Assembly (NCBI RefSeq): GCF_029846175.1
Contig: NZ_JARWAC010000016.1
Location: 343,167-407,166, forward strand
From: Sphaerisporangium sp. TRM90804
Lineage (GTDB): Bacteria; Actinomycetota; Actinomycetes; Streptosporangiales; Streptosporangiaceae
Direction: 5' to 3'
DNA: 64,000 nucleotides
In this document: piece after piece, positions 37,811-47,951 of the stretch
Layout of the letters: every line of letters begins with the position of its first letter
Numbering within the stretch: position 1 is the first letter of the stretch
Program-made: the position numbers and the translations under genes
Notes under the pieces: generated by a model
The model's input: only the letters and a program-made list of their open reading frames with translations
Told to the model about the DNA's origin: nothing
Databases searched by the model: none

Positions 37811-37946
37811 GGAACCTCTCCCTCGGCGTCGCGGAACCGCCCACAGGCGGACACCAGCCTGAGTGTACGGACTTGTATGGGTTCGAGATGGTCGGCCGGG
37901 ATGTGTGACTATCCTTGCTCCCGACCTCTGGGGACACGGTGATGGC

Positions 37947-40136
37947 ATGAGTGATGAGTTGGAGAGCACCCGGCAGGCCCTGCAGGCGGCCGTGGCGGCG
38001 GCGGCCGGCGCCGCCGAGCTCGCCCGGCTGCTGGAGGACTACCAGCGGCGGCTCGCCGAGGCGGCCGCGTCGGAGGCGGAGGCGGTCACCCGGCGGCGCG
38101 AGGCCGAGGCCCGGCTGAAGGCCGTCGAGAAGCGGACGGCCCTGCTCGCCCGGAACCTGGCCGAGCAGCGCTACCAGACCGAGGTCGCCCAGTGGCGGCT
38201 GGAGGGCGTCCAGGGCAGCCGGTGGTCCCGGCTCGGCGACGCCATCCACACCAAGAACCCCGGCGAGGTGGCCCGCACGCTCAAGAGCCCGGTGTCCCGC
38301 CGTCCCGCCCCCAAGCGCTCGGACTTCTCACCCGTGCCGCCCCCGGCCGAGGCCGAGCCGGTGGCCCCGGCGGTGCCCGAGCCGTCCGGACCGGCCGTGT
38401 CCACCGCGATGGCCGAGGGCTTCGTCGTCCCCAAGGGCCCGCTGACCCGGCCGTACCTCACCGTCGCGGCGATCGTGGACCGCCAGTCGGAGGCCCTGTT
38501 CCGGTACGAGTGGCGCCAGGTCACCAACTTCGGCCCCGACAACTGGCGGGAGATGCTGGACGAGCACCGCCCGCACCTGCTCTTCGTGGAGTCGGTGCGC
38601 CCCGGCCCCCGCCAGGGCAACGGCGGGCGCTGGCTGGAGGAGCTGGCGGGCCGCTCCCGGGGTCTGCGCGACCTCGTCGAGGAGTGCGGCCGCAGAGGCA
38701 TCCGCACGGTCTTCTGGCACTCCGGCGGCCCGGTGTCCGTCAGCGTCCCGATGGCCGGGTACTTCGACCACGTCCTGGCCACCTCCCAACAGCGGGCCCG
38801 CGAGTGGCGCGCCGCCCTCCGTCACGACCGCGTGGCCGTCCTCCCCCACGCCGTCCAACCCCGAGTCCACAACCTCATCCCCGCCGCCCCACGCCCCACG
38901 GCGCCCCGTCCGGCCCCCACGGCGCAGCCGGCCCCCACCGCCGAGACCGCGTCCGAGGCCACGCCCGGCCTTCCCGGGACATCGCCGGACGCCGCATCCG
39001 GCGCCGCCTCCCACACGGCGCGGCCGGGTCTCGACCCCGCGACGCAGGCCAACGGCGGTGCCGCGTCCCATGGCCCGCTGCCGGTGGCGAACGGCCGTGC
39101 CGGGGTCGGGCTGCTCGGGACCGTGCTGCGGGGGGCGCCGCCCGCGGACCTCGGATGGCGGCCGCTGATCGACGGGAAGGCCTCCTACGACGACCTGCTG
39201 ATCGCCTACCGGTCGGTGTCGCTCGTCCTCGCCGGCCCGGACGCCGAGGCCAGGACGCTGGCCGAGCTGGCAGCCTGCGGCACCCCCGTCATGCGGCTCA
39301 CCGCACCGGTCGAGGCGGACGAAGAGGCGCTGCGCCGGACGGCCGAGGCCGTCACCGCCCACCTCGCGGCCGAGGCCGAGCGCACCGCGGAGGCACACCA
39401 CGCCTGGCGGGCGTCGGTCCCGGTGACCCCGCTGCTCGACCCCATCCTCGACTGGATCGGCGTCCCGTCCGTGCGGAACACCGCGGAGATCACCGCCATC
39501 GCGGCCGTCACCGGGCAGGCCGAGCTGGACAACCTGCTGGCCGCTCTGCGCCACCAGGCCCGCCGCCCCGGCCAGCTGGTGATCGTCGCCGAAGGCCTGG
39601 ACGGCGCCGTGGTGGAGAAGGCGGCCCAGGCGGTCCACAAGGGCGAGCTGACCGTCCGCGAGGCCCGCGAGCCCGTGACCCGGGGCGCCGCCCTCGACCG
39701 CGCCCTCCGCCTCGCCGACGGCGACCTGGTGGCCGTCCTCGACCCCCGCGACCGGTACGGCGAGCACTACCTGGCCGACCTCGCCGCCTACCTCACCGCC
39801 GTGGACGCCGAGATCATCGGCAAGGCGTCCTTCTACACCCACATTCAGTCCACCGGCGCGACCCTGCTCCGCCAGCCCGGCGCCGAGCACCGCTTCCTCC
39901 CCGAGGTCACCGGCGGCACCGTCCTGGCCCGCCGCCAGACCCTGACCGCGCTGGGCATAGCCGACCTGTCCGAAGACTGGGACGAGACCCTCATGCGTCA
40001 ATGCCGCACGGACGGCATCCGCGTCTACTCCGCCGACCGCCACAACTACACCCGAACCCGCCCCACCCCCACCCCCCACCTCCTCACCTCCGCCCACCTC
40101 CTCCCAGACTCGACGCCCTTGCAGATCATGCTCTGA
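37947..40136 (+). CDS. large glycosyltransferase-like protein with coiled-coil N-terminus
   Basis: Protein of 729 residues. Residues about 5-90 form an Ala/Glu/Arg-rich coiled coil. A CgeB-like region follows (about 165-310), with FGPDNWREMLDEHRPHLLFV and TVFWHSGGPVSVSVPM. A Pro/Ala-rich linker (about 315-385) leads to a second Rossmann-like part with LRLADGDLVAVLDPRDRYG, a GT2-like DxD region. It is probably a cell-surface or spore glycan glycosyltransferase. The donor and acceptor are unknown. It starts at ATG 37947, divergent from the asparagine-synthetase-like gene. Confidence 0.78.
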   Translation: MSDELESTRQALQAAVAAAAGAAELARLLEDYQRRLAEAAASEAEAVTRRREAEARLKAVEKRTALLARNLAEQRYQTEVAQWRLEGVQGSRWSRLGDAIHTKNPGEVARTLKSPVSRRPAPKRSDFSPVPPPAEAEPVAPAVPEPSGPAVSTAMAEGFVVPKGPLTRPYLTVAAIVDRQSEALFRYEWRQVTNFGPDNWREMLDEHRPHLLFVESVRPGPRQGNGGRWLEELAGRSRGLRDLVEECGRRGIRTVFWHSGGPVSVSVPMAGYFDHVLATSQQRAREWRAALRHDRVAVLPHAVQPRVHNLIPAAPRPTAPRPAPTAQPAPTAETASEATPGLPGTSPDAASGAASHTARPGLDPATQANGGAASHGPLPVANGRAGVGLLGTVLRGAPPADLGWRPLIDGKASYDDLLIAYRSVSLVLAGPDAEARTLAELAACGTPVMRLTAPVEADEEALRRTAEAVTAHLAAEAERTAEAHHAWRASVPVTPLLDPILDWIGVPSVRNTAEITAIAAVTGQAELDNLLAALRHQARRPGQLVIVAEGLDGAVVEKAAQAVHKGELTVREAREPVTRGAALDRALRLADGDLVAVLDPRDRYGEHYLADLAAYLTAVDAEIIGKASFYTHIQSTGATLLRQPGAEHRFLPEVTGGTVLARRQTLTALGIADLSEDWDETLMRQCRTDGIRVYSADRHNYTRTRPTPTPHLLTSAHLLPDSTPLQIML

Positions 40137-40253
40137 CCCAAGCGCGTCCCCCGCCAAGGCATGGGCCTCGCCTCCGCGCGCTGCGCGCACTCCGGCTCGG
40201 GCTGTACCTCCCAGGGGGCTCCGCCCCTCGCTCACCGATAACCCCCGAGCCAG

Positions 40254-40517
40254 TCGGGGCAGTTCCCCGCCGTGGTCGGTGACCCTGAGGCACAGGTCTT
40301 CGGGCGTCGCCCATAGGGAAAGCCGAATCGGTGGCGTCCCGTGGCAGACGGCGTTGCCGAGCAGTTCGCCGACCACGAGGACGACGTCGTCGACCAGGAT
40401 TTCGAGCCCCCAGCCGATGGGCCTCTCCCTGACTCTGCCTCGAACATCGCTGATGACCGCCAGGTCGTGCGGAACGTCCCATGCCACGGTGCGAAGCCCG
40501 TCAGGGGGCGCGGTCAT
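40254..40517 (-). pseudogene. truncated HATPase-type (anti-sigma-factor-like) ATP-binding protein
   Basis: The ATG at 40517 has AAGGAG nearby and begins a normal small serine-kinase-like HATPase protein: LVVGELLGNAVCHGTPPIRL gives the N box and LRVTDHGGELPR the G1 box. After residue 88 homology stops. The reading frame runs on through unrelated GC-rich sequence and into the opposite strand of the glycosyltransferase gene with no stop. The G2 region needed for nucleotide binding is missing. It is interpreted as a 3'-truncated remnant. Confidence 0.65.
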
Positions 40518-40601
40518 CGAGACTCCTTCCGAAAGGGGTGCGGGGGATCGGCGTGCTCCGTGAAGGGGCGTCGGTCGCGCACCGACGTTTCCAACCGGCG
40601 A

Positions 40602-40757
40602 GCCCACGAACTCCGCCTCGCGCATCGACACCCGTAGTTCGTCGACCGAACGGGCCACCACGGTCACGGGAACGGGCGTCGGCCACGTGGCGATGGCATG
40701 AAACCGACGGCTGCCGACGCCGTACCAGACGGCCCACGCGGGCTCCGTCTGATCCAC
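40602..40757 (-). pseudogene. fragment of a small conserved actinobacterial protein
   Basis: On the minus strand the segment WAVWYGVGSRRFHAIATWPT and the following TVVARSVDELRVSMREAEF resemble a short protein seen beside HATPase and XRE-DUF5753 genes in this group. Here there is no stop codon before the HATPase start, so the two frames are fused. No good ribosome binding site precedes it. Function unknown; family recall is from memory. Confidence 0.45.
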
Positions 40758-40799
40758 CTGGTCTGCCGCCGCCCGCTCGGCCTCATCCCAACTCCTCCG

Positions 40800-40905
40800 G
40801 CGAACCGGCGTGACGAGATCGTCGACCTCGCCCGGGACGCCCGGAAGAAGGGCTGGTGGCAGGCGTATGGCGACCTGCCAACGGAGTACGCCAGTTACAT
40901 AGCTG
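40800..40905 (+). pseudogene. fragment of an XRE-DUF5753 regulator gene
   Basis: About 35 codons on the plus strand read RDEIVDLARDARKKGWWQAY then GDLPTEYASYIA, the beginning of a DUF5753 domain (compare ARRPGWWQQYEDLDLDPYIG in the intact gene at 2.5 kb). No helix-turn-helix precedes it, and the sequence switches abruptly to an ATPase fragment in another frame. It is a recombination or deletion junction. Confidence 0.7.
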
Positions 40906-41218
40906 CTCACCCTGCCAGGCCTCCCCCACCTCGTGGTGCTGGACGAGCCCGAACTGGGCCTGCACCCCTACGCCACCGTCCACCTGGCCGACATGTCGCG
41001 AGCCGCCTCACGCGATCGCCAGGTCCTCATCGCAACCCAGTCCGTGACGCTGACGAACCAGTTCGCGCTGGACGACCTCGTCGTGGTCGAGCGGTCTGGG
41101 TGACTCGTCCACCTTCGATCGCCTCGATCCTGGACGACTGCACGACTGGCTGGCGCTGTATCCGCTGGGTGAGCTCTGGGAGAAGAATCTGCTCGGCGGG
41201 AGACCACAGGCCCAGTGA
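40903..41218 (+). pseudogene. frameshifted C-terminal fragment of an AAA ATPase (OLD/RecF-like)
   Basis: From 40903 the frame reads LLTLPGLPHLVVLDEPELGL, then HPYATVHLADM and DRQVLIATQSVTLTNQFALD, giving Walker B (LVVLDEPELGLHP) and the following histidine-switch-like segment of an SMC/OLD-type ATPase. A stop occurs at 41101. A -1 shift at about 41099 restores the natural ending (STFDRLDPGRLHDW then LGELWEKNLLGGRP) to 41218. The N-terminal two thirds, including Walker A, are missing. It is a dead gene remnant. Confidence 0.75.
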
Positions 41219-41407
41219 TGACGGGCGGACTGGGTGATCTTCCGCTGTCCTTGATCGGGCCTCGTTCCCGGCGTATCGAAGCGCTGCGGGCTTCGTCGGC
41301 AGGACGGGTCTGTCTTCGGGGTTAGGAGAACAGCCCGAGCGTAGCGAGGCCCACTTGCGAGACGGGGAGCCTTCCCACAGGCCGGGGAGCGGGTCCCGGC
41401 CGGGGAG

Positions 41408-41425
41408 TGAGTAGGGCCTTACTCA
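41408..41425. promoter_or_regulatory. inverted repeat TGAGTA-n6-TACTCA upstream of the MACPF-like gene
   Basis: Perfect 6-base arms TGAGTA (41408-41413) and TACTCA (41420-41425) end 35 bases before the preferred ATG at 41461. The site is AT-rich relative to its surroundings and is a candidate operator for the two-gene unit. The gap 41219-41407 shows no gene. Confidence 0.45.
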
Positions 41426-41460
41426 TGTGGTCTTGGGCGGGGGTGCGGTTGCCTCGGGGT

Positions 41461-43101
41461 ATGGCAGATACGCAGCGCACGGTCCCATTCATGGATGGGA
41501 TGGCCCTGGGGCTGGGGCTGAACGATCTCACGGGGGCGGTCGGGTCGTTGGCCGCGGTGACCTATGGGGGAGTGGTGTCGGCGGACGGCGACTCCGGCAT
41601 GGAGGCGCGGTACGACACGGCGCTCATCTACTCCAGCGAGCAGATGTACGAGTCGCTCGGCATCAGCGTCAGCGCCGAAGGCAGGTACGGGCTGTTCAGC
41701 GGCGAGGGCAAGTTCAAGTTCGCGGAGGAGTCCAAGTTCAACTCCCAGTCGACGTTCCTCATGGCGCGCGCCGACATCCAGAACGCGTTCACCCGCGTCG
41801 AGGCCCCCACTCCCGTCGAGGACGCCAAGGAGCTGGTCCGCAAGGGCGAGCAGGAGACGTTCCGCAAGCGGTACGGCGACCTGTTCATCCGGGGGGTGAA
41901 GAGCGGCGGCGAGTACGTCGCGGTGCTGTCGATCACGTCGCAGAGCCAGGAGGACCAGCGGTCGCTGGGCGTCGCGCTCAAGGCGGGGTTCGACGGCATC
42001 GTGGCGGGCGGCTCGATCAACTCCGACCTGCAGACGAAGATCTCCTCCCTGCGTCAGCGGTCCGAGATCAGGGTGACCACCTACCAGCGCGGCGGGTCGG
42101 GCGAGCAGGTCTCCTACACCGGCACCATCGAGACGGTCATGGAACGGCTGCGGACGTTCGCCACCGCGGTCCAGCAGAGCCCGAAGGCGTACTCGGTGCA
42201 GGCGGCGTCGTACGAGACGCTCGTGTTCCCCGACCAGCCGAGCCCGTTCGACATCGAGCAGGCGCGTGAGGTCCTGGAGGACTGCATGCGCAAGCGGCTG
42301 CAGATCATGACCATCCGCAACGACATCGAGCTGGTGCTGCTGCATCCGGAGTACTTCAAGTCGCCGCCGGCCTCGGCGGTGCTGAACGGCTGGAGCCGCG
42401 CGATCACCGAGCAGCTCAACGCGCTCGACCGCCACGTGCGGCGCGTCATCTCCCACGGGGCCGGGGACACCGAGTTCTTCCCGCTGGTCCTGCCCGACGG
42501 CCTGGCGATCCCCGAACGGCTGCTGCACTCCAGCGCGCAGGTGGAGATCTACACGCACGCCGACTACCAGATGGAGCCGTGGCAGGGCATCCCCGGCCGC
42601 AAGCAGGTGCTCGCGCCCGGCTGGTACGACGACGCCAAGAGCCAGATCCTCGTCGGCAACGACCAGATCAGCTCGCTGAAGGTGCCGGAGGGTCTCGCGG
42701 TCAGGGCGTACGAGCACGCCTGGTTCCAGGGCGCGTTCATCGACTTCACCACCGACGTGCCGGCCGTGCCGATGGACTGGAACGACCGCATCTCCTCGCT
42801 CGTGATCTTCCCGGCGGCCGGCCAGCCCCCGCGGGTCGACCACATCGTGGCGCTCGACTTCGCGTGGACGCTCCGCGCCCTGGTGCTCAAGCCGGGCCGC
42901 TACCCCGACCTCGGCGGCACGCCGCTGGGCGCCGGGCACCTGGGCGCGCTGCTCATCCCGTCGGGAATGCTCGTCCGGCTCTGGGACGGGCCCGGGTTCA
43001 CCGGCGCGTCCACCGAGTTCCTCGGCGACGTCGTCGAACTGCCCGCCGACTGGAACGACCGCGCGGTGTCCATCGAGGTGGAGGACCTGCGCCCGCGGTG
43101 A
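41461..43101 (+). CDS. MACPF-like protein with C-terminal beta-gamma-crystallin domains
   Basis: Putative calcium-responsive pore-forming protein of 546 residues with no signal peptide. Residues about 15-250 resemble the membrane-attack-complex/perforin fold: helical and strand segments leading to RYGDLFIRGVKSGG (Tyr138-Gly139 and Gly149-Gly150), in the position of the YGTHF signature. Residues about 360-455 form a beta-gamma-crystallin domain with two canonical calcium motifs, NDQISS (400-405) and NDRISS (441-446). Residues about 460-546 form a second copy with one degenerate motif NDRAVS (532-537). The ATG at 41461 is preferred over GTG 41407. A leaderless serine protease gene follows after 45 bases. 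The MACPF call is from motif pattern only. Confidence 0.7.
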   Translation: MADTQRTVPFMDGMALGLGLNDLTGAVGSLAAVTYGGVVSADGDSGMEARYDTALIYSSEQMYESLGISVSAEGRYGLFSGEGKFKFAEESKFNSQSTFLMARADIQNAFTRVEAPTPVEDAKELVRKGEQETFRKRYGDLFIRGVKSGGEYVAVLSITSQSQEDQRSLGVALKAGFDGIVAGGSINSDLQTKISSLRQRSEIRVTTYQRGGSGEQVSYTGTIETVMERLRTFATAVQQSPKAYSVQAASYETLVFPDQPSPFDIEQAREVLEDCMRKRLQIMTIRNDIELVLLHPEYFKSPPASAVLNGWSRAITEQLNALDRHVRRVISHGAGDTEFFPLVLPDGLAIPERLLHSSAQVEIYTHADYQMEPWQGIPGRKQVLAPGWYDDAKSQILVGNDQISSLKVPEGLAVRAYEHAWFQGAFIDFTTDVPAVPMDWNDRISSLVIFPAAGQPPRVDHIVALDFAWTLRALVLKPGRYPDLGGTPLGAGHLGALLIPSGMLVRLWDGPGFTGASTEFLGDVVELPADWNDRAVSIEVEDLRPR

Positions 43102-43146
43102 GCCGGGCCCCGCCCATCCCAACGACCTACACGAGACAGGTGCGAA

Positions 43147-44106
43147 ATGGACATACCCCAGGAAATGGTGGACGCCCTTCCCGCCCTCGGGGCCGAAGTG
43201 CTGCCGCTCGACGGCGTGAACGGCATGGACATCGGGCTCGACCCGTTCGGCGAGCCCGCCATCCGCCTGCTGGTCACCGACCCGGACGACCCGCCGGGCG
43301 GGCTGCCCGGCAGCTTCGCCGGCTTCCCGGTCATCCTGGTGGCCGGGACGCCGATCACCGAGGCCGTCACCCCGGACGCCGGCAAGCACGCCCCCGTGCT
43401 CGGCGGGATCCAGCTGGGCCGCCGGGAGATCGTGGGCGGGCTCGCCACCACCGGAACGCTCGGCTGCGTCCTCCGGGACGGGTTCTCCGGCGAACCGGTC
43501 GCGATCAGCAACGCCCACGTGCTGCTCGGCGACATCACGAGCGGCGGGTTCGCCGTCGGCGACGTGATCCAGCAGCCGGCGCCCACCACCGACCCGCCGC
43601 CGACCGCAGAGCGCCTCGGCACCCTGCTGCGCTGGCGGTTCCCCGACACCCCGGCCCTGTTCCCGTCGCCGGGCAGCGGCGGCGTGTCCGGCTTCTGGGA
43701 CGCGGCGGTCTGCTCGATCGACGAGGGGCGGGGCGCGAGCGTCGGCGAGATCGCCGAGATCGGCACGGTCACCGGCATCGGCACCGCGCGCCTCGGCGAG
43801 ACCGTGCGCAAGCGCGGCCACCGCACGCTGCTCACCTTCGGCACGGTCGTCGGCCTGTTCGGCAGCTACGCGGTGTGGGACTCCAACGGCGCCTTCCAGT
43901 GGTGGATGCTGGGGCAGATCGCCATCGACGTCATCGACGACGCGAGCCTGAACCCCGACGGCATCTGGTCCAACTCCGGGGACTCCGGCTCCGTGGTGGT
44001 CAACGAGGCCAACGAGATCATCGGCCTGCACCACGCGGGGGACGCCACCACGGGGTACGCCTCCGACTTCGGGCCGCTCGCCCTCGCCCTCGACATCACC
44101 CTGTAG
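43147..44106 (+). CDS. leaderless trypsin-like serine protease
   Basis: Predicted cytoplasmic serine protease of 319 residues without a signal peptide or membrane segment. The catalytic triad is intact: His124 in AISNAHVLL, Asp185 in GFWDAAVCSID and Ser280 in SNSGDSGSVVVNE. The first 95 residues form an N-terminal domain not found in secreted trypsins. RKRGHRTLLTFGTVVGLFG is typical of the bacterial Nal1-like branch. It is 45 bases after the MACPF/crystallin gene on the same strand, so it is likely co-transcribed. It may process that partner; this is inference from adjacency. Confidence 0.88.
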   Translation: MDIPQEMVDALPALGAEVLPLDGVNGMDIGLDPFGEPAIRLLVTDPDDPPGGLPGSFAGFPVILVAGTPITEAVTPDAGKHAPVLGGIQLGRREIVGGLATTGTLGCVLRDGFSGEPVAISNAHVLLGDITSGGFAVGDVIQQPAPTTDPPPTAERLGTLLRWRFPDTPALFPSPGSGGVSGFWDAAVCSIDEGRGASVGEIAEIGTVTGIGTARLGETVRKRGHRTLLTFGTVVGLFGSYAVWDSNGAFQWWMLGQIAIDVIDDASLNPDGIWSNSGDSGSVVVNEANEIIGLHHAGDATTGYASDFGPLALALDITL

Positions 44107-44157
44107 CCCGGCGAGATCGGCCCCCGAGCGGGACGGCGGACACCCCGGCCCGGCCTC

Positions 44158-44163
44158 TATCCT
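44158..44163 (+). promoter_or_regulatory. -10 box TATCCT for a leaderless DALR-protein transcript
   Basis: TATCCT ends six bases before the ATG at 44170, the spacing expected when transcription starts at the start codon. No ribosome binding site is present. No convincing -35 is visible. Confidence 0.4.
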
Positions 44164-44169
44164 GCGGGC

Positions 44170-44910
44170 ATGTGCGTGGAGGCGCTGACGGCGGCGCTCG
44201 GGGCGGCCCCGGTGCCGCGCGGCGGCTGGGGTCGGACGGCGGCGTTCGTCTCGTCGGCGGCGGCCGGTGACGGCGCGAGCGGGGCGGGGGAACTGGCGGC
44301 GCGGGTGCGCGCCGTGCCCGGCGTCCGGAAGGTGGACGTCCGGGCGGACGGGCTGCTGGTGATCGAGGTCGCCGTGCCGGGGGAGATCGTGCGGGAGATC
44401 CTCACGCGCGCGGGCGCGGGGGAGCGGGCGCGCGAGGCGGACGGGACGGGCGTCGGCACGGGGGCGGCAGGGGTGGGCTCCGCAGATGAGGGGGAGGAGC
44501 GGGGCGGCCCCTGGCCGGACTTCCCGCGCACCTGGAGCAACCCCGGGTTCGCCGTCAGGTACGCGTACGTGCGGGCCGGGGACGTCGCCCGCTGGGCTCG
44601 TGAGCTCGGCGTGGAGGGGGCCGCCGGGTTCCGGCCGGAGCTGCTGGCGGACGCGACCGACCGGGCGGTGCTGCGGGTGCTGGCGGAGCTGCCCAGCAGG
44701 CGGGAGAGCCGGGACCCGGGCTGGCAGGCCTACCTGGAGCGGCTGGCGGCGGCCTACCACGACGCGTTCGAGCGGGCTCCGGCGCTGCCGCGCGGGGACG
44801 AGGCGCCGTCCGCGACCCACGTTGCGCGGGTGTGGACGGCGCGAGCCGTGCGCGAGGTGCTCGCCGAGGGCATGGCGGCGCTCGGCGTCCCGCCCCCGGC
44901 GAGGATCTGA
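44170..44910 (+). CDS. DALR anticodon-binding-domain protein (ArgS C-terminus-like)
   Basis: Protein of 246 residues related to the arginyl-tRNA synthetase C-terminal half but lacking the catalytic HIGH/KMSKS domain. Residues about 5-85 look like the ArgS additional domain (VRAVPGVRKVDVRADGLLVI). Residues about 115-246 are the DALR helical bundle, with NPGFAVRYAYVRAGDVARWA, AYLERLAAAYHDAFERA and the terminal VREVLAEGMAALGVPPPARI. A stand-alone DALR protein just upstream of lysA is common in related actinobacteria. It may bind tRNA or assist ArgS; its function is unproven. Confidence 0.88.
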   Translation: MCVEALTAALGAAPVPRGGWGRTAAFVSSAAAGDGASGAGELAARVRAVPGVRKVDVRADGLLVIEVAVPGEIVREILTRAGAGERAREADGTGVGTGAAGVGSADEGEERGGPWPDFPRTWSNPGFAVRYAYVRAGDVARWARELGVEGAAGFRPELLADATDRAVLRVLAELPSRRESRDPGWQAYLERLAAAYHDAFERAPALPRGDEAPSATHVARVWTARAVREVLAEGMAALGVPPPARI

Positions 44911-44972
44911 TCGCCCGGCCCGGTCACCGGGCCCGGTCGTCGGATTCGATCATCGGCCTGGTCGCCGGATCC

Positions 44973-45016
44973 GGCCATCCGGTCCGGGCATCGGGCCCGG
45001 CCATCGGGTCCGGTCG
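44973..45016. repeat. degenerate 13-14-bp tandem repeats before lysA
   Basis: Successive units resemble CCGGATCCGGCCAT, CCGGTCCGGGCAT, CGGGCCCGGCCAT and CGGGTCCGGTCG; related sequence continues upstream to about 44915. They fill most of the 264-base gap between the DALR gene and lysA. No gene is seen there. Confidence 0.65.
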
Positions 45017-45161
45017 CGGGGAGTCGAACGCCCATACGGAGGGTGATCGAAAAGCGGCGAACGATCACAACGGGCGCATCGTGGGACGGGGCGCCGGGGA
45101 GATCTTTCTGTTGGCCGTCTCGCAGGGTGGGCAACGGGCGCGGGGGGATCAGAGGGTCGGA

Positions 45162-45167
45162 TAGCCT
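45162..45167 (+). promoter_or_regulatory. -10 box TAGCCT for a possibly leaderless lysA transcript
   Basis: TAGCCT lies seven bases before GTG 45175, which has no ribosome binding site of its own. This spacing suggests transcription starting at the start codon. The -35 region is GC-rich and unconvincing. Confidence 0.4.
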
Positions 45168-45174
45168 CGTTCGG

Positions 45175-46557
45175 GTGAGCCGATTCGCCCATCCCGCTGG
45201 TGACCGCCACGCCGAGGTAATGCCTGAAGAGCGGCCTCCCCGGGCTCCCGCCGATCTCAATACGCTCGTGCCGTCCATCTGGCCGCGAACGTCCGGCCGC
45301 GCCGACGGCGCGGTGACGATCGCCGGCGTGGACGTCAGAGACCTCGCCCGTGAGTACGGCACGCCCCTGTACGTCGTCGACGAGGCCGACTTCCGGTCCC
45401 GCGCGCGCGACTACAAGGCCGCGTTCGCCGGCGACGACGTCTACTACGCGGGCAAGGCGTTCCTGTGCAAGGAGGTCGCCCGCTGGGTCGACCAGGAGGG
45501 CCTGGGCCTCGACGTCTGCAGCGCCGGCGAGCTCGCCGTGGCGCTGAGCGTCGGCTTCCCGCCCGAGCGCATCGCCCTGCACGGCAACAACAAGTCGTAC
45601 GCCGAGCTGGAGCGCGCCCTGCGCGCCGGTGTGGGCCGCATCGTCGTCGACTCCTTCGACGAGATCGCGCGCGTCGGCTATCTCGCCGACGAGCTGGGCG
45701 TGCGGGCCAAGGTGCAGATCCGCATCACCACCGGCGTCGAGGCGCACACGCACGAGTTCATCGCGACCGCGCACGACGACCAGAAGTTCGGCCTGTCCCT
45801 CAACAGCGGCGCGGCGGCCGAGGCCGTCCGCCGCGTGCTGGCGCTGCCCCAGCTCGAGCTGGTCGGCCTGCACTCCCACATCGGCTCGCAGATCTTCGAC
45901 ACCGCCGGCTTCGAGGTCGCGGCCCGCCGCCTGGCGGTGCTGCTGACCCAGGTCAAGGAGGAGCACGGCGTCATCCTGCCCGAGCTCGACCTCGGCGGCG
46001 GGTACGGCATCGCCTACGTCGAGGGCGACGACCCGCCCGACATCAAGATCGTGGCCGACAACCTGCGCCAGATCGTCGCCCGGGTCTGCGAGGACGCCGG
46101 GCTGCCGGTGCCGCGCCTGACCGTCGAGCCCGGCCGGGGCATCGTCGGCCCCGGCGGCGTCACGGTCTACGAGGTCGGCACGGTCAAGGACGTCGAGGGC
46201 ATCCGCTCCTACGTCAGCGTCGACGGCGGCATGAGCGACAACCTGCGCACCGCCCTGTACGCGGCCGAGTACACCTGCGTGCTGGCGTCGCGGGTCAGCG
46301 ACGCCCCGCCCGCGCTGTCGCGGGTGGTCGGCAAGCACTGCGAGAGCGGCGACATCGTCGTCCGCGACGTCTGGCTGCCGGGGGACGTCGTGCCCGGAGA
46401 CCTGCTGGTGGTCCCGGCGACGGGCGCCTACTGCCGGTCGCTCGCGCACAACTACAACTACCTGCCCCGGCCCGCCGTGGTCGCGGTCAAGGACGGCGAG
46501 TCACGGGTGATCATGCAGCGCGACACCGAGGAAGACCTCTTGAGGGGGCAAGTGTGA
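45175..46557 (+). CDS. lysA: diaminopimelate decarboxylase
   Basis: Last step of lysine biosynthesis: PLP-dependent decarboxylation of meso-diaminopimelate. 460 residues. The PLP lysine is in [43 protein letters not shown] and the active-site Cys motif GKHCESGDI are all present. The GTG at 45175 gives the standard N-terminus; an ATG at 45220 is an alternative. The stop overlaps the hom start (GTGA), so lysA and hom are translationally coupled. Confidence 0.96.
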
Positions 46558-47951
46558 AACCCGTCGCCCCTGGGGGCTCCGCGGAGCCGGGCGCCGCCGG
46601 AGCGGCCGCGGCCGAACGGCGGGGCAGGCACGAGCGCCTGGGAACCGGGCGCTCCGAGGGGCCGCTCAAGGTCGCGCTGCTGGGCTGTGGCGTCGTCGGG
46701 TCGCAGGTCGTGCGGCTCATGCACGAGCAGGCCGACGATCTCGCCGCCCGCATCGGCGCGCCGCTGGAGCTCGCCGGGGTGGCCGTCAGGCGGCTCGGCC
46801 GCAAGCGCGACAGCGACGTCGACCCCGCCCTGCTCACCACCGACGCCGAGGGGCTGGTCACCCGCGACGACGTCGACATCGTCATCGAGGTGATCGGCGG
46901 CATCGAGCCGGCCCGGTCGCTCATCCTGGCGGCCATGGCGGGTGGCAAGTCGGTCGTCACCGCCAACAAGGCCCTGCTCGCGCAGGACGGCGCCGTCATC
47001 CACGGCGCCGCCAAGGAGCACGGCGCCGACCTCTACTACGAGGCCAGCGTGGCCGGGGCGATCCCGCTGCTCCGCCCGCTGCGCGAGTCGCTGGCCGGCG
47101 ACCGCGTGCACCGCGTGCTCGGCATCGTCAACGGCACCACGAACTACATCCTCGACAAGATGGACACCAGCGGCGCCTCGTTCGTCGACGCCCTCGACGA
47201 GGCCCAGTCCCTCGGGTACGCCGAGGCCGACCCGACCGCCGACGTCGAGGGCTTCGACGCCGCCGCCAAGGCCGCCATCCTGGCCGGCCTGGCGTTCCAC
47301 ACGCGGGTGACGGCGGCCGACGTCCACCGCGAGGGCATCACCGAGATCACCGCGACCGACGTCGCCAGCGCCAAGGCGATGGGGTACGTCATCAAGCTGC
47401 TGGCGATCTGCGCGCGCTCCGACGGCGGCGGCTCGGTCGGGGTGCGGGTGCACCCGGCCATGATCCCGAGGAGCCACCCGCTCGCGGGCGTGCGCGAGGC
47501 CTACAACGCGGTGTTCGTGGAGGCCGAGTCCGGCGGGCAGCTCATGTTCTACGGCAAGGGCGCGGGCGGCGCGCCGACCGCCTCGGCCGTGCTGGGCGAC
47601 CTGGTGGCCGTGGCGCGCAACCGGCTGGCGGGCACCCACGGGCCGCAGGAGTCCACCTACGCCGACCTTCGCGTCCACCCGATGGGCGAGACCGTCACGC
47701 GCTACCACGTGTCGCTGGACGTCGCCGACAAGCCCGGCGTGCTCGCCAGGGTCGCCGACATGTTCGCCAAGCAGGACGTGTCCATCCAGACCGTGCGCCA
47801 GGAGGGGCACGGCGACGAGGCACAGCTCGTGCTCGTGACCCACCGGGCCGCCGACTCCGCGCTGTCGGCCACAATAGAGGGCCTGCGCGAGCTCGACATC
47901 GTCAGAGACGTGCCGAGTGTGATGCGTGTGGAAGGCGAGGACAACCACTGA
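46554..47951 (+). CDS. hom: homoserine dehydrogenase
   Basis: Reduces aspartate semialdehyde to homoserine. 465 residues. The NAD(P)-binding motif is [14 protein letters not shown]. The catalytic region includes [11 protein letters not shown] and the substrate-binding [20 protein letters not shown]. The C-terminal ACT domain (about 385-455, [20 protein letters not shown]) suggests threonine feedback. It starts at GTG 46554, overlapping lysA. Unusually, thrC does not follow; glycosyltransferase genes come first. Confidence 0.96.

Follow-up and report, generated by a model that had tools for sequence, protein, structure and literature searches.

The window, a stretch of 64,000 nucleotides from Sphaerisporangium sp. 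TRM90804 (contig NZ_JARWAC010000016.1, positions 343,167 to 407,166), contains two adjacent genes, one for a protein with a predicted MACPF core and a pair of beta-gamma-crystallin domains (gene 1) and one for a serine protease predicted to be of the type of rice NARROW LEAF 1 (NAL1; gene 2). They lie on the same strand with a 45-base gap (43102-43146), and a genome of a second genus holds remnants of the same pair at an unrelated site. An earlier note, made from the letters of this DNA, had singled out the two genes as a candidate system; both of its open reading frames, the spacing, and the YGDLF (residues 138-142) and GG (residues 149-150) motifs were as claimed, with numbering from the ATG at 41461. 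The gene 1 start is best placed at this ATG rather than at an upstream GTG (41407), which is not needed because the homologues and the remnant in the second genome align from the ATG.

The gene 1 product is predicted to form MACPF pores. The MACPF/CDC signature reads Y/W-G-T/S-H-F/Y-x6-GG and is recognizable in the protein, but D-L stands where T/S-H would be. In an alignment of 40 rows, G139, G149 and G150 were invariant, and D140 and F142 were present in at least 90%. The predicted structure matched MACPF/CDC folds in Foldseek, bearing out the fold proposed earlier, and the top three rows were Mpf2Ba1, GNIP1Aa, which is insecticidal, and Aegerolysin-L (Aeg-L), a solved pore. Aeg-L and Mpf2Ba1 were also matched by sequence. 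No gasdermin was found among the 50 matches listed for each of two structure searches, which does not exclude a family outside those lists. Calcium-type beta-gamma-crystallin domains carry the motif N/D-N/D-x-x-S/T-S. Two crystallin domains were recognized by fold, and their description as calcium-type held for the first, in which the motifs (N-D-x-x-S-S) begin at residues 400 and 441, but not for the second. Both gene products had been called leaderless, and neither was observed to have an evident leader or membrane stretch, the maximal 19-residue Kyte-Doolittle mean being 1.35 (from residue 23) for gene 1 and 1.41 (from residue 57) for gene 2.

Gene 2 is predicted, from fold and sequence alike, to encode a protease of the NAL1 type, a more precise identity than the trypsin-like one given in the earlier note. 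NAL1 chains align to residues 1-319 or 2-319 of its model and trypsin-only chains begin at residues 82-85, and the protein also matches NAL1 by profile; a NAL1 N-terminal domain and a trypsin-like domain with an H-D-S triad are thus both present. The Pfam family Nal1_C was not listed for the window protein; it scored above its cut-off in one homologue (P0081) and below it in two (P0082 and the protein of locus L108). The intact triad claimed earlier was found to be conserved over 35 rows, with H124 invariant and D185 and S280 (GDSGS) in at least 90%. The nearest relatives are 82-85% identical, and P0049-P0051 are close protease homologues. NAL1 proteases form hexameric assemblies. Viral protease labels (S32, S7) were set aside as sub-cut-off Pfam matches around the GDSG motif.

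The evidence that the two genes belong together comes from genome comparison. The searches scored only the best 6, 7 or 3 candidates per genome, depending on the search, so that misses are possible. At E 1e-15, 6 genomes among 341 of the family, the window's included, have a relative of gene 2, and when the surroundings of all six were inspected, gene 1 was adjacent in the window and in genome G549 only. The G549 site (C31) is a deletion remnant, in which gene 1 survives as codons 1-32, followed in a different frame by gene 2 codons 221-319. It shares order, strand and end points with the window pair and lies at a non-syntenic position in another genus of the same family. Nucleotide similarity to the window extends from the gene 1 ATG to 44097, nine bases short of the gene 2 end, and the rest of the window region 39500-46000 had no match in 19.5 kb at the G549 locus. 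The confinement of similarity to the two genes, together with the joined remnants, is the trace expected if the same two-gene unit had lost its middle part while located elsewhere in the chromosome. The ratio of nonsynonymous to synonymous substitution rates (dN/dS) is low for both pieces, although part of the divergence may postdate decay. None of the six other genomes of the G549 genus carries a gene 2 relative.

The pair belongs to the accessory content of a region whose DNA is exchanged within the genus, because this interval (40136-44170 in the window) measures 0.1 kb in one genus mate (G010) and holds 3.5-4.7 kb of other DNA in four more (G001, G004, G006 and G009); the accessory role suggested by the earlier note is thereby upheld. 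The glycosyltransferase-like gene on the left was present in the fetched stretch of 5 of 10 genus mates, and no genus mate has the pair. Within the genus, neither an entire gene 1 nor a close relative of gene 2 occurs outside the window's genome (8.3 Mb in 86 contigs); G005 has a crystallin-only match to gene 1, and G007 a distant protease elsewhere in its genome. The dead remnants reported alongside the pair were likewise recovered: a decayed gene keeps its last third in two frames, and its intact counterpart adjoins the glycosyltransferase-like gene in G001. This remnant is older interval content, outside the two-gene unit. No integrase or transposase was noticed with the pair, and no tRNA was found in the window. 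The one Rfam match in the window, an L31-Actinobacteria ribosomal protein leader (RF03158, 59548-59615, 43.2 bits), lies far from the pair.

The operator candidate upstream of gene 1 fared less well. The dyad is present as described (arms of 9, 89% complementary), but it may have arisen by chance: 15 of 500 shuffles reached the observed one in an ungapped search, and when gaps of at most 8 were allowed, 51 of the 500 reached the observed number of two and 130 contained at least one. No sigma-70-like promoter was found, and similarity to the G549 locus begins only at the gene 1 ATG. As an operator candidate it is weak.

Table 1. Features of the gene pair, its surroundings in the window, and neighbours of related genes at other loci (coordinates without a locus prefix refer to the window)
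Feature	Position	Strand	Context	Basis
Gene 1, MACPF/beta-gamma-crystallin protein, 546 residues, no evident leader	41461..43101	+		open reading frame, profiles, alignment, predicted structure
MACPF core, residues 1-254, YGDLF-x6-GG at residues 138-150	41461..42222	+	gene 1	
First crystallin domain, residues 358-455, two N-D-x-x-S-S calcium-type motifs	42532..42825	+	gene 1	
Second crystallin domain, residues 459-546, without calcium-type motif	42835..43098	+	gene 1	
Gene 2, predicted NAL1-type serine protease, 319 residues, no evident leader, His124/Asp185/Ser280	43147..44106	+		
NAL1-like N-terminal domain, residues 1-81	43147..43389	+	gene 2	fold alignments
18-base dyad, weak operator candidate	41408-41425	.	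upstream of gene 1	
Decayed gene, last third (ATPase by motif reading), frameshifted near 41100	40882-41215	+	intact in G001	
Glycosyltransferase-like gene	37863-40136		left of pair	sub-threshold Pfam match
DALR-domain gene, then lysA- and hom-like genes	44170-47951		right of pair	DALR by Pfam; lysA and hom read from translations
898-residue protein	L125:6527-9223	-	directly downstream of NAL1-type protease	
898-residue protein	L126:6806-9493	-	directly downstream of NAL1-type protease	
31% relative of the 898-residue protein	L079:2347-3843	+	directly downstream of NAL1-type protease	
LGFP-repeat protein, 65% identical to that of L115	L156:7986-9690	-	beside NAL1-type protease in G065	
LGFP-repeat protein	L115:7415-9593	+	beside MACPF-family gene, Streptomyces plasmid	
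Small protein, one of two about 40% identical (Planotetraspora and Chitinophaga, an actinomycete and a Bacteroidota genome)	L005:11371-11820		follows shorter MACPF-family gene (457-458 residues)	
Small protein, the other of these two	L006:11396-11770		follows shorter MACPF-family gene (457-458 residues)	

The two genes probably travel and work together, because the same pair, although broken, recurs in a different genus at a site unrelated to that of the window. Our tentative reading, held with somewhat less than even confidence, is that they form a two-gene unit which has moved between genomes and in which the NAL1-type protease cuts its neighbour and thereby licenses pore formation. The gene 1 product, having no evident leader, would stay soluble in the cytoplasm, and the co-transferred protease is the obvious candidate enzyme for trimming it. 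Related MACPF and CDC-like toxins require proteolysis, and Mpf2Ba1, which acts on insect cells, is activated by an N-terminal cut (PMC10344926; PMC11952106). In alignments to Mpf2Ba1, residue 62 of the gene 1 product falls on residue 102 of the full-length chain, and residue 60 on residue 71 of the shorter pre-pore chain; gene 1 thus appears to start close to where the processed toxin does and to lack an equivalent of the N-terminal piece that is cut away. Because of this starting point another cut site would be expected, most likely in the linker that joins the helical stalk to the crystallin pair, around residues 333-357. The crystallin pair may bind calcium and could serve as a targeting or restraining module. 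After release by lysis, the product would act on a foreign membrane. Least certain of all is the direction of action, outward or on the producer. Two points favour the outward direction, the action of Mpf2Ba1 on insect cells and the exchangeability of the C-terminal module, and by this analogy the nearest solved relatives lean towards an outward-acting role.

Several observations weigh against this reading. Release by lysis is conjectural; as for export by a contractile injection system, the one sheath family searched for (PF04984) had no match in G000 or G549, and the control was positive in 3 of 14 genomes. As for the fold, the structure model of gene 1 has a predicted TM-score (pTM) of 0.53, and the Foldseek TM-scores against MACPF chains were low (0.21-0.31 among the rows listed). 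The sequence matches to Mpf2Ba1 are weak (E 0.033 by family profile, 9.9e-4 by single sequence), and PF01823 (MACPF) reached 15.9 bits in the window protein, under its cut-off of 21.5; it scored 26.1 bits, over the cut-off, in the homologue P0003 and matched 24 of the 40 alignment rows at E 0.01, the window protein not being among them.

The remaining points concern how often the genes meet. The four other protease loci of the family (G007, G945, G963 and G982) were without a MACPF gene in the stretch taken, the G982 contig ending about 1.9 kb upstream. In three further searches, the profile of gene 2 (E 1e-3) was matched in 21 of 396, 25 of 200 and 40 of 295 genomes; up to 30 loci per search were fetched with 1.5-kb flanks, and at none of the other protease loci was gene 1 matched. 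Conversely, none of 12 other MACPF-family loci (L001-L007, L111, L112, L115, L128 and L129, the last two with a 1.5-kb flank only) has a protease relative in the fetched stretch, a count that excludes crystallin-only matches (G005, G433, G542, G483 and G879) and five unopened plasmid matches. In the genus of genome G033, gene 1 was matched in 3 of 392 genomes at E 1e-15, one by the crystallin part alone, and the closest protease (G760, 56%) was without a MACPF gene within the 18 kb fetched. No MACPF-protease fusion was found among 51 profile hits, the candidates being limited both by length and to 7999 in number. The MACPF protein usually does without the protease. Moreover, another protein recurs beside the protease, an 898-residue one without a Pfam match in G982 and G963, with a 31% relative in G626; at L125 and L126 the adjoining protease gene is disrupted. 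The adjacency surveyed here recurs once, as the non-syntenic deletion remnant; the pairing is real but local, and general pairing is not supported. Neither of the two outcomes that the earlier note had named as refuting its proposal was obtained, as the predicted structure matched MACPF/CDC folds and the genes adjoin each other at this second locus.

These counts are what would be expected if the MACPF and NAL1-type protease genes were accidental neighbours, carried together by chance and having separate roles, as most homologues of either gene occur without the other. The G549 remnant, in a second genus and at an unrelated site, keeps the gene order, the strand and the end points and resembles the window in these two genes only, which argues against chance and leaves this explanation rather doubtful.

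A gasdermin-like suicide pair, in which an inactive protease senses phage or stress and cuts the MACPF protein, whose pores then open the producer's membrane in abortive infection, is possible because neither protein shows an evident leader and pairs of this kind serve in bacterial immunity. The genes adjoin each other at two loci and lie in a variable interval, and this logic is known for gasdermins (PMC9612521) and for nuclease-protease pairs (PMC12799240). However, a search of PADLOC-DB 2.0.0 gave no family for either window protein at E 1, no defence genes were noticed beside the pair, and the defensive role suggested earlier thus found no backing. Among the 35 protease rows, one weak PADLOC family (PDC-M35A, 2 members, best E 0.037) was matched. 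A PADLOC scan of 78 neighbour proteins gave only two CARF models, with 2 members each; it comprised 75 of 85 same-strand open reading frames neighbouring related proteases and 3 chosen by hand, the 10 left out being from loci already in, close copies of these, or the remnant's own upstream gene, and L108 and L011, which are the same gene, were both counted. The Pfam scan showed no sensor domain, the MACPF family is mostly without a protease, and the solved relative Mpf2Ba1 acts on insect cells. The suicide pair is accordingly considered unlikely, and its bolder form, a mobile perforin-fold counterpart of gasdermins in which the NAL1-type protease cuts the MACPF/crystallin protein and pores open the infected cell, quite unlikely. 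Least probable is a protease that acts as co-effector or inactivator, degrading targets or, for self-protection, the MACPF protein, with the crystallin domains possibly binding it: in the window protein PF03995 (Inhibitor_I36) scores 30.7 bits, over its cut-off of 21.1, and it matches 28 of the 40 rows at E 0.01, but the crystallin score is slightly higher (32.1 bits), calcium-type motifs are present, and I36 inhibitors have the crystallin fold and act on metalloproteases.

Other surroundings of the two families add few links. The LGFP-repeat proteins may join both families through a third party, at one locus each, and chance is possible. A MACPF relative in Kribbella has a neighbour with a DUF3238 match. 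The neighbours of related proteases belong to scattered families with no clear pattern (25 of 37 families listed). Gene 1, the only one of the two searched there, had no match in phage records; IMG/VR gave no MACPF match and two distant gene 2 relatives (26-28%). Six plasmid records match gene 1, one (H4) by the crystallin part alone and one (H1) opened, and no plasmid matched gene 2.

A growing number of effectors in bacterial conflict are licensed by proteases, among them gasdermins, nuclease-protease pairs and CDC-like proteins (CDCLs). If the licensing reading is true, a MACPF protein with a co-transferred protease extends this principle to the perforin fold, and gene 2 is a compact bacterial relative of rice NAL1 with a candidate substrate next door. 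If instead the suicide unit is true, the NAL1 family, known from plant development, also has a part in conflict between bacteria and their foes, its protease being a mobile activator for different effectors, MACPF here and the 898-residue protein elsewhere.

How does the pair compare with known systems? Among the titles and opening parts of abstracts found, with few subscription journals covered, nothing concerned a MACPF-crystallin protein with a protease, and none of the NAL1 titles and abstract openings dealt with a bacterial NAL1. Rice NAL1 shares with gene 2 the N-terminal and trypsin-like domains, the triad and a full-length fold match, but its chains in the structures listed are longer (333-409 residues against 319) at about 19% identity, and gene 2 is bacterial and adjoins a pore-former gene. 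Protein S and clostrillin match gene 1 in sequence through their crystallin domains, which in gene 1 are fused to a MACPF core. Bacterial gasdermin systems likewise place a leaderless pore-former gene beside a protease gene, an arrangement seen at the window and G549 but at none of the 12 other MACPF-family loci. In gasdermins the cut falls about 20 residues before the C-terminus (PMC9612521), where gene 1 has its crystallin pair; with a MACPF fold and a NAL1-type protease in the window pair, the parallel is an analogy. In Hachiman/AVAST nuclease-protease pairs, an effector gene lies directly upstream of a trypsin-like protease gene and the two are acquired together (PMC12799240); in the window, the effector is a putative pore-former, the protease is unfused to a defence enzyme, and no defence gene was seen nearby. 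CDCLs belong to the MACPF/CDC superfamily and are activated by proteolysis, but they are two-component pore-formers activated by C11-type proteases. Mpf2Ba1, GNIP1Aa and Aeg-L share the MACPF core, and Mpf2Ba1 needs proteolysis, while ending in a beta-prism rather than a crystallin pair. The window pair also differs from these three relatives in its co-encoded protease gene.
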